Positions 36,296-39,065 of a stretch of DNA of 64,000 nt are shown here, one piece after another. A program made the translations under genes and the position numbers. The number at the start of each line of letters is the position of its first letter. The stretch's first letter is position 1. The DNA is from Myxococcaceae bacterium (GTDB taxonomy: Bacteria > Myxococcota > Myxococcia > Myxococcales > Myxococcaceae): contig JAEUJQ010000045.1 in NCBI GenBank assembly GCA_016793095.1, positions 1 to 64,000 of the forward strand. Reading direction: 5' to 3'. A model generated the notes under the pieces. The model was given only the letters and a program-made list of their open reading frames with translations. It was not told the origin of the DNA and did not search any database.

Positions 36296-37168
36296 ATGGA
36301 CCGCGCCTTCCTCGAGGGCCTTGGCCTCAGGGTGTCGGAGAGCGAGGGCGTCGTCGAGGCCGAGCTCGAGCTCTCTTCGGGCCTCGCGCTCAACCCGCTG
36401 ACGAGGCAGGTGTTGAGCGCGGTGCACTTCACCGTGCTGGGCGATCGTCTGCTCTACGTCGGCCCACCGGAGTTCGTCGGCGCCCAGCCGATCAACCTCG
36501 CGTTCCTCACCGGCTCGACGCGCCTAGAAGATCTCGTCGTTCAGACCCTGAACGATCATCTCTATCAGCTCGAGCGCCGCTCGAACGAGCTCTCGGCGCT
36601 GGGGATCAACCCGAAGGTCGATCCTGCGACGCTGCAGCTGAGCGTCGAGCTCGAACGCGGCCGCTTCAAGTTCACCCTGGGCGCGAGCCGGGCAGGGCAG
36701 TTCCGGGTCGCGCGCTGCCTGCTCGACGACCACGAGCTGTCGCTCTCGGGTGCTGCGACCTCGTTCGAGCTGAGCGAGTTCCGTGATCGGAGCGCGCTCG
36801 AGGACTTCCTCTACGCGATGTTCGGCGATCTCGCCGGCAGCCCGACGCCTCCGCCCCGAGCCAGCGACGAGGCGCCCGCGATCGGGGAGGACGTCGCCAT
36901 TCCGATGAGCGCGCTCTTCCAGGCGTTTGGTGACGCGACGGTGCCTCCCCGCGCGATCATGGAGTTCTTCTGCGAACTCAAGGTGAGCGGCGAGACGGTG
37001 CGCTTCGCCGCCGCGCGCGTTCAGGGGCGGACCTTTCGCGGGCTCCTGGCCGGTGCGGCGGGGAAGATCTGGGCTGATCGCTTCGAGCTCGACGAGTTCC
37101 CCGGCATCCGCGCCCTCGTGTCCGAGTTGATGAAGACGCCCATCGAGGAGATCGAGGTGGTGGAGTGA
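36296..37168 (+). CDS. Unknown protein (hypothetical, conserved context)
   Basis: 290 aa; no family recognised. Soluble, acidic, no signal peptide. Two related-looking halves: residues 5-100 (VSAVHFTVLGDRLLYVGPPE) and about 100-175, then a Pro-rich hinge (PTPPPRASDE near 182) and a C-terminal part (200-290). It starts 10 bp after the acyl-CoA dehydrogenase stop, and its own stop overlaps the meaB GTG, so it is firmly in that operon. Start ATG could also lie at an internal codon. Confidence 0.75.
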   Translation: MDRAFLEGLGLRVSESEGVVEAELELSSGLALNPLTRQVLSAVHFTVLGDRLLYVGPPEFVGAQPINLAFLTGSTRLEDLVVQTLNDHLYQLERRSNELSALGINPKVDPATLQLSVELERGRFKFTLGASRAGQFRVARCLLDDHELSLSGAATSFELSEFRDRSALEDFLYAMFGDLAGSPTPPPRASDEAPAIGEDVAIPMSALFQAFGDATVPPRAIMEFFCELKVSGETVRFAAARVQGRTFRGLLAGAAGKIWADRFELDEFPGIRALVSELMKTPIEEIEVVE

Positions 37169-38205
37169 GCAACGCGCAGGAGCTCGCAGACGGCGTGCTC
37201 GCAGGCGACGTGCGCAAGGCCTCGAGGCTCATGCGGCTCATCGACGATCAGCAGCCCGTCGCGACCGAGGCGCTCAAGCTGCTCTTTCCGAAGACGGGAA
37301 GGGCGTGGGTGATCGGGATCACCGGCTCACCGGGGGCGGGGAAGTCGACCTTGACCGATCGGCTGATCACTGCGTTCCGGGCCCGGGGGAAGACCGTCGG
37401 GGTCATCGCCGTGGACCCGACGAGCCCGTTCACCGGCGGCGCGATCCTGGGCGACCGCATTCGCATGCAGGGCCATGCGACCGACGGCGGCGTCTTCATC
37501 CGCTCGCTCGCCACGCGGGGCAACCTGGGCGGCCTGTCGCGCGCCACCGGCGATTGCCTCCGGGTGATGGACGCGATGGGTCGAGACGTGATCCTCGTGG
37601 AGACCGTGGGCGTCGGTCAGGACGAGATCGACATCGCCCAGCTCGCGCACACGACGCTGGTGGTGCTGGTGCCGGGCATGGGCGACGACATTCAAGCGAT
37701 CAAGGCCGGCATTCTCGAGGTGGCAGACGTCTTCGTGGTGAACAAGGCCGATCTCGACGGCGCCGATCGCATGGTGCGCGAGCTGCGGGCGAACCTCGAG
37801 CTCCGCCACGCGATCAAGGCGCCGCCGCTCGATCACGACGCGCACCACCGCATGGTCCGCGCGAAGGCAGAAGGGAAGCCGGTGGAGCCCGCGCCGGCCG
37901 GGCCGCCCGAGTGGGAGCCGCCGATTCAGAAGGTGATCGCCGCGAAGGGCAATGGGATGGACGAGCTGATGGCGGCCATCGACCGGCACCAGCAGTTCCT
38001 GATCGACACCGGTGAGAAGGCGAAGCGCGAGCAGACGCGCGCGATGACCCAGTTCCTCACGCTGTTGCGCGACCGGTTGCTGCGCGCAGGCCTCGACCGC
38101 CTGGAGCGAGAGCGGGGAAAGCTCACCGACGTGGCTGCCCGCATCGCCGAGCGACAGGCTGACCCGTACGTGCTGGCAGACGAGCTGGCGCGGACGATGA
38201 GCTGA
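37165..38205 (+). CDS. meaB: Methylmalonyl-CoA mutase-associated GTPase MeaB
   Basis: 346 aa. G3E GTPase that guards and reloads adenosylcobalamin in methylmalonyl-CoA mutase. Walker A GSPGAGKST near residue 54, VDPTSPFTGGAILGDRIRM near 88, ETVGVGQDEIDI, and NKADLDGADR for guanine specificity, followed by the usual dimerisation tail. GTG start overlaps the previous stop (GTGA). Its 3' 140 nt plus 29 nt beyond the stop are duplicated just downstream. The mutase itself is not in the window. Confidence 0.95.
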   Translation: MSNAQELADGVLAGDVRKASRLMRLIDDQQPVATEALKLLFPKTGRAWVIGITGSPGAGKSTLTDRLITAFRARGKTVGVIAVDPTSPFTGGAILGDRIRMQGHATDGGVFIRSLATRGNLGGLSRATGDCLRVMDAMGRDVILVETVGVGQDEIDIAQLAHTTLVVLVPGMGDDIQAIKAGILEVADVFVVNKADLDGADRMVRELRANLELRHAIKAPPLDHDAHHRMVRAKAEGKPVEPAPAGPPEWEPPIQKVIAAKGNGMDELMAAIDRHQQFLIDTGEKAKREQTRAMTQFLTLLRDRLLRAGLDRLERERGKLTDVAARIAERQADPYVLADELARTMS

Positions 38206-38234: not shown

Positions 38235-38277
38235 CGCTTGACCGTCGCCGAGCTTCAATCTCAGGCGCACGCAAGAC

Positions 38278-38441
38278 TGCGCGACCGGTTGCTGCAGGCC
38301 TCGACCGCCTGAGCGAGAGCGGGGAAAGCTCACCGACGTGGCTGCCCGCATCGCCGAGCGACAGGCTGACCCGTACGTGCTGGCAGACGAGCTGGCGCGG
38401 ACGATGAGCTGAGGGGTCGCGCACGAGCGGCTGCTGCGTGC
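38278..38441 (+). pseudogene. Duplicated, frameshifted 3' fragment of meaB
   Basis: 164 bp almost identical to 38066-38234; differences are a 4-nt deletion (CTGCGCGCAGG to CTGCAGG) and a 1-nt deletion (CCTGGAGC to CCTGAGC). No start or upstream half, so not a gene. A 17-bp third echo, GCTGCCCGCATCGCCGA, follows at 38442-38458. The copy ends 75 bp before the dif-like site. Confidence 0.95.
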
Positions 38442-38515
38442 GCTGCCCGCATCGCCGAAAGGCTCGAGTCAGCACGACGATCACCGCGCACAGCAGCCGG
38501 AAGACGCTCCCGCAT

Positions 38516-38543
38516 AGTTTACATAACGCTCATTATACGAATC
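38516..38543 (-). other. dif: Candidate chromosomal dif site (XerC/XerD recombination site)
   Basis: Read on the minus strand: XerC-type arm GATTCGTATAA, 6-bp centre TGAGCG, XerD-type arm TTATGTAAACT. The XerD arm equals that of B. subtilis dif as I remember it and differs from E. coli dif by two bases; the XerC arm shares the CG-ATAA core. The 28-bp site is an AT-rich island in GC-rich DNA, sits between convergent genes (meaB plus, PilZ minus), and marks a change in gene-strand preference across the window. Confidence 0.82.
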
Positions 38544-38600: not shown

Positions 38601-39065
38601 TCAGCTCAGGTAGCGCGTCAGCACGGAGTCGAAGATCGCGTTCTCGAGGCGCTCGGCATCGGCGGTGGGCATCGAGGCGATGCTGAACGACACCTTCGAG
38701 TTCCCCGTTTGTCTGATGGCCGCGACGACCTTCGCCGAGCCCGTCACCGGCTCGCCACCACCGATGCGAATCGAGAACCTCACTTCATCACCGACGCTGA
38801 GGTTGGTGGGCACGAGCGCGCTGAAGCCGCCGCCCGACACGTCGCGCGTGAGGCACTTGTAGGCGCCGTTGAGCTCCACCTGCCAGGCCTGCGCGATGCG
38901 GAACGTCCTGCGCGGTGACTGGCCCTCTCCAACGACGAGCCCTTGCGCCTGCACCAGCGAACGCGCGAGCTCCTCCTTCATCGCCCGGTGGCGGTCGTTC
39001 GAGCCGCTCTTCTTCGCGGCTTCGTGAACGGCCTTGAAGGTCTGCATCCATTCAGTGGCATCCAT
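38601..39065 (-). CDS. PilZ domain protein (c-di-GMP effector)
   Basis: 154 aa. Both c-di-GMP-binding motifs are present: RxxxR at residues 52-56 (RRTFR) and DxSxxG at 75-80 (DVSGGG), followed by the PilZ barrel strands VGDEVRFSIRIGG and GSAKVVAAIRQ. The N-terminal 45 residues are helical. ATG at 39065 has GGAGAG upstream. It is the last gene of the minus-strand nadD operon, 37 bp after nadD. A role in motility or surface control is inferred only from the domain. Confidence 0.92.
   Translation of the reverse strand: MDATEWMQTFKAVHEAAKKSGSNDRHRAMKEELARSLVQAQGLVVGEGQSPRRTFRIAQAWQVELNGAYKCLTRDVSGGGFSALVPTNLSVGDEVRFSIRIGGGEPVTGSAKVVAAIRQTGNSKVSFSIASMPTADAERLENAIFDSVLTRYLS

Follow-up and report, generated by a model that had tools for sequence, protein, structure and literature searches.

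The window, a 64,000-nt stretch of DNA from an uncultured member of the Myxococcaceae, contains a 28-bp site that is almost certainly a myxobacterial chromosomal dif, as judged from sequence comparison. It is of the same kind as the dif of M. xanthus DK 1622, which was published in 2009 (PMC2731167), and is an ordinary, expected feature. This dif would mark the terminus of the chromosome and give orientation to the draft contigs. The flanking sequence suggests a little-described element that targets dif.

Sequence and setting of the dif site

The minus strand from 38543 to 38516 reads GATTCGTATAA-TGAGCG-TTATGTAAACT (Table 1). The XerC-like arm, 6-bp centre and XerD arm described in the initial annotation are all present, exactly as claimed. 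The first bases of the XerC arm depart from the family form GTC. As the initial annotation proposed, the XerD arm appears identical to that of the B. subtilis dif. The annotation had also placed the site between convergent genes, and it does lie between meaB and a PilZ-domain gene, in a gap of 395 bp. The meaB-dif-PilZ order is maintained in same-genus genomes.

Table 1. Positions of the predicted dif site, its neighbours and the putative scar in the window.
Feature	Position	Strand	Basis
Predicted dif site, 28 bp, GATTCGTATAATGAGCGTTATGTAAACT	38516..38543	-	Sequence; single genomic copy; homologues in 91/96 family genomes
XerC arm, 11 bp, GATTCGTATAA	38533..38543	-	By-eye alignment to published dif sites and relatives
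Central region, 6 bp, TGAGCG	38527..38532	-	Position between the arms; GAGCG common to most same-genus sites
XerD arm, 11 bp, TTATGTAAACT	38516..38526	-	Identical to the XerD arm of M. xanthus dif
meaB (methylmalonyl-CoA mutase-associated GTPase), XerD-side neighbour	37165..38205	+	Pfam PF03308; same neighbour in L021, L023
PilZ-domain gene, XerC-side neighbour	38601..39065	-	Pfam PF07238; same neighbour in L019-L023
Putative scar, 26 bp of int2 recombinase coding sequence	38244..38269	+	100% to L154 12644-12619
Partial copy of meaB 3' end and following sequence	38278..38441	+	131 bp identical plus shorter pieces
Third meaB-tail piece, 17 bp	38442-38458		
Putative scar, 54 bp from end of two-recombinase element	38459..38512	-	94% to L154 12078-12131

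The recombination machinery is encoded in the same genome. XerD (contig C85) and XerC (contig C79) both scored above curated cut-offs, and an FtsK gamma domain on contig C2 could be aligned with its counterparts in 2j5o and 2ve8 over 58 residues. A third Xer-like recombinase, of the PRK01287 type, was also observed (L168 3105-4256); its 20.6-kb contig, G000:C72, also has an open frame of 3,878 residues. From the known system, we infer the enzymatic steps at the window dif as follows. The GGGNAGGG sequences that point at the site from both sides would guide FtsK, which would pair the two dif copies of a chromosome dimer at the division septum. FtsK would then activate XerD, followed by XerC, for strand exchange in the 6-bp centre, and this exchange would resolve the dimer.

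Copy number and conservation

Only one match to dif was found in the 8.81-Mb draft genome (93 contigs, 98.65% complete) when up to three mismatches were allowed. The initial annotation had named several copies, as of plasmid or mobile-element sites, as an objection; dif is single in the whole draft. For the family search, a pattern modelled closely on the window XerC arm missed most relatives, and the pattern KTCNNATAAKNNNNNTTATGTNAACT, drawn from family sites, was used instead with up to two mismatches. Sites of this type were found in 91 of the 96 family genomes, mostly once each, and in 81 of the 83 family genomes of good quality. In genus g23 the most frequent site type is GTCCGATAACATGCGTTATGTAAACT, which equals the dif published for M. 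xanthus DK 1622 (PMC2731167) without the two leading bases; this puts the host within the Myxococcaceae or close to them.

Second dif-like sites occur on separate contigs of some relatives, such as the 73.5-kb G061:C2 and the 147-kb G106:C2. Their centres and flanks differ. The sites L157 (G106:C2), L158 (G085:C25), L159 (G112:C131), and L160 (G100:C148), on separate contigs of which some are perhaps plasmids, have a common upstream layout, GATAAC..GTAAG (or similar)..TTTACT/TTTATT. They may be plasmid dimer-resolution sites with accessory sequence.

Terminus position and KOPS polarity

The distance from dnaA to dif was 0.464-0.499 of the chromosome circumference in all 20 relatives measured (19 of the family and one of the order). 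These have complete or near-complete chromosomes with one dominant chromosome contig, and for nine of them the chromosome length was rounded to 0.1 Mb. The homologous sites thus lie opposite dnaA. Because the window genome is a draft, its own evidence for the terminus is limited to KOPS polarity.

For two relatives, G082 and G016, octamers in the 400 kb surrounding the site were ranked by how strongly they are skewed towards dif. The top two words, GGGCAGGG first and GGGGAGGG second, both match the E. coli KOPS GGGNAGGG. The window contig played no part in choosing this word. On 264 kb of that contig, which has only 38.5 kb of sequence on one side of dif, 53 of the 59 copies of GGGNAGGG point towards dif (p about 1e-7), with strand counts of 10/0 on the left and 6/43 on the right; none of 20,000 shuffles equalled this polarity. 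The counts on the two sides were 75/9 and 13/72 in G082, and 63/23 and 13/81 in G016. The polarity switch on the window contig is located between 1.2 kb before and 2.3 kb after dif; in this contig and the two relatives, the switch brackets dif or falls within 3 kb of it. The average sign change of the GC skew is in the right direction, but it is small in this lineage, and GC skew by itself is too weak for placing the terminus. Another word, GAGAAGGC, has a stronger strand skew towards dif than KOPS on positions 1-264000 of the window contig (85 to 15). It is absent from the top words of the two relatives, and its skew may reflect gene direction and codon use.

The polarity check proposed in the initial annotation thus gave a flip at dif in the window contig and in two relatives. 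Together with the position of the homologous sites in relatives, it agrees with the claim that the site marks the replication terminus. The proposal of a probable chromosomal dif is likewise backed by the single copy, the terminus position by homology and the KOPS polarity. In the family, the E. coli octamer GGGNAGGG is strongly polarised, and it is therefore usable for ordering myxobacterial contigs.

These data bear on two other explanations of the site. It is scarcely conceivable that it is a functionless AT-rich sequence that arose by chance. Nothing but the shortness of the site speaks for this, whereas dinucleotide-preserving shuffles of the window gave no match within three mismatches of dif, the site is conserved across the family, and its position and polarity fit. 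Chance was rejected on the shuffles, the conservation, the dnaA distance and the KOPS polarity. The second explanation, very improbable, assigns the site to a plasmid or to an integrated element that exploits Xer (as a pdif or IMEX attachment site), so that it would not be the dif of the chromosome. The second dif-like sites of some relatives (G061:C2 and G106:C2) and the recombinase-element debris that adjoins the window dif could be taken in its favour. However, those second sites have other centres and flanks, the window site is the sole one in its genome, the KOPS polarity over 264 kb of the contig switches at it, and meaB and the PilZ gene flank dif in same-genus genomes too.

A putative scar between meaB and dif

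From meaB to dif the sequence is a patchwork, in which the meaB tail is followed by a 26-bp piece, then by a partial copy of that tail, a 17-bp piece, and 54 bp up to dif (Table 1). The 26-bp and 54-bp pieces have counterparts on contig C171 of G003, a genome of the same genus (L154). On that contig, the 54 bp separate a dif-like site from the stop codon of the tyrosine recombinase gene int2, and the 26 bp lie inside the int2 coding sequence. When the C171 module was compared with the whole window genome, it matched these two pieces and gave two weak matches of 71-80%, one of which is in the XerC gene. Both strong traces are within 300 bp of dif. At L021 and L023, in the same genus, dif is beside meaB without this debris. 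Since pieces of the module lie beside the window dif and none at the dif of L021 and L023, an insertion appears to have been lost from the window and to have left a scar. The XerD-side flank thus looks like what remains of a decayed element, which would once have been located at the outer edge of the XerD arm and whose decay would have left dif intact. The window scar is without the TGGCCCATTT stretch, which borders dif in the intact element.

It is unlikely that misassembly or ordinary spacer, with no mobile-element scar, accounts for the debris between meaB and dif. The meaB tail pieces are oddly interleaved, which misassembly could produce. However, the 54 bp are missing from the dif flank of L021 and L023, whereas L154 has them between dif and int2, and the 26 bp come from the coding sequence of a recombinase. 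These pieces so close to dif are moreover, but for the two weak matches, the sole traces of the module in the genome.

The dif-edge element in relatives

At L154 12037-14611 (G003:C171), a dif-like site is accompanied by two tyrosine recombinase genes that read towards its XerD arm; the other side of the site has the type I restriction-modification genes HsdM, HsdS, and HsdR. The second recombinase gene, int1, is directly upstream of int2. Two recombinase genes are beside the site in L154, G067, and G080, and among the ORFs scanned in L154 no third was seen beside int1 and int2. Relatives of int2 (E below 1e-25) were found in five of the 96 family genomes. In G003, G080, and G067, the int2 contig also has a dif or dif-like site, and 74-165 bp separate the end of int2 from the XerD arm of that site. 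The int2 contig of G018 shares at least 127 identical overlapping bases with each of two dif-bearing contigs, and the dif contig of G001 breaks off inside an apparent int2 3' end (by eye); because of these contig ends, int2 of G018 and G001 is also placed at dif. A scan of named genomes added a Myxococcota MAG (L178), in which 90 bp separate int2 from a dif-like site, and the MAG SJ496 (L186), in which an int2 fragment abuts dif.

In G018, normal-dif and variant-dif contigs meet the same recombinase contig (G018:C627, C401, and C576; L162 4786-4949, L163 8425-8588, and L202). The normal dif is connected to the chromosome on its contig, and the variant dif to different DNA. An integrated element together with a circular or tandem one would be expected to give this pattern. 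The two dif contigs are different through the XerD arm and become identical at its last three bases and beyond. Should they represent two junctions of a single element, the exchange would have taken place outside the XerC/XerD crossover region; this would favour the element's own recombinases and speak against a host-XerCD crossover in the dif core. Two sets of element border sequence, TATGTGGCCC and TAACCGGCCAATCC, were found. In addition, a palindrome, GAAATGGGCCACATA-AATGTAAAC-TATGTGGCCCATTTC, was observed at G067:C23:118585-118621 (in L212) and, near-perfect, at L154 18152-18183. Its spacer resembles an XerD arm, and it is possibly two element ends joined.

A complete right junction of the element was not found in the relatives searched. 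In G067, no clear second site was seen between dif and the homologue of the G021 XerD-side gene, about 12 kb beyond dif. G067:C50 was considered as the other junction, but no gene in common with the XerD side of the relatives' dif was seen on it to support this. No end overlap closes G003:C171, no dif-like sequence was found near the meaB loci of G001 and G018, and PLSDB contained no int2-encoding plasmid.

Taken as a whole, it seems fairly probable that the Myxococcota dif serves as the attachment site for a family of integrative elements with two adjacent tyrosine recombinase genes, and that the window dif bears a dead scar of one. The elements would insert where the XerD arm ends on its outer side, probably with the ATGTAAAC of that arm as the core, keeping a working dif on one side and adding a variant dif on the other. 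The open-licence papers searched, where absence is weak evidence, describe no elements with two recombinases at this edge of dif. If confirmed, the flanking element would be mobile DNA that uses its own recombinases at the dimer-resolution site and spares that site.

Comparison with known systems

The closest comparison is the dif of M. xanthus (PMC2731167). Both sites are 28 bp long, with XerD arms identical at 11 of 11 positions, a single copy, a location at the terminus, and XerC and XerD encoded elsewhere in the chromosome. However, the XerC arms are identical at only 6 of 11 positions, and the M. xanthus centre is CATGCG whereas that of the window is TGAGCG. The dif sites of E. coli and other proteobacteria share the arm plan, the 6-bp centre, the FtsK gamma domain and, by sequence, the same octamer GGGNAGGG. 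They differ in the sequences of the XerC arm and centre, and the KOPS role is here read from sequence.

Several kinds of mobile DNA are comparable to the putative element. The IMEX, including LME-1, GGI, and the CTX phage (PMC9765430, PMC4246890), are also mobile DNA at dif, flanked by a dif at one end and by a variant of it at the other. However, they use the host Xer recombinases, whereas the scar element has two recombinase genes of its own, and its crossover seems to fall outside the Xer core. The IS1202-family insertion sequences of Acinetobacter (PMC10132070) likewise have a fixed insertion place beside dif and keep dif, but they use a DDE transposase and insert on the XerC side; the element here has tyrosine recombinases and is on the XerD side. 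The GInts, which excise as circles, are islands that also have several adjacent tyrosine recombinase genes at one end (PMC5385486). They carry three recombinases plus GinD (the ginABCD operon), whereas two recombinase genes were seen here. Unlike in the GInts, the 3' end of the recombinase genes faces the attachment site in the element here, and that site appears to be dif.
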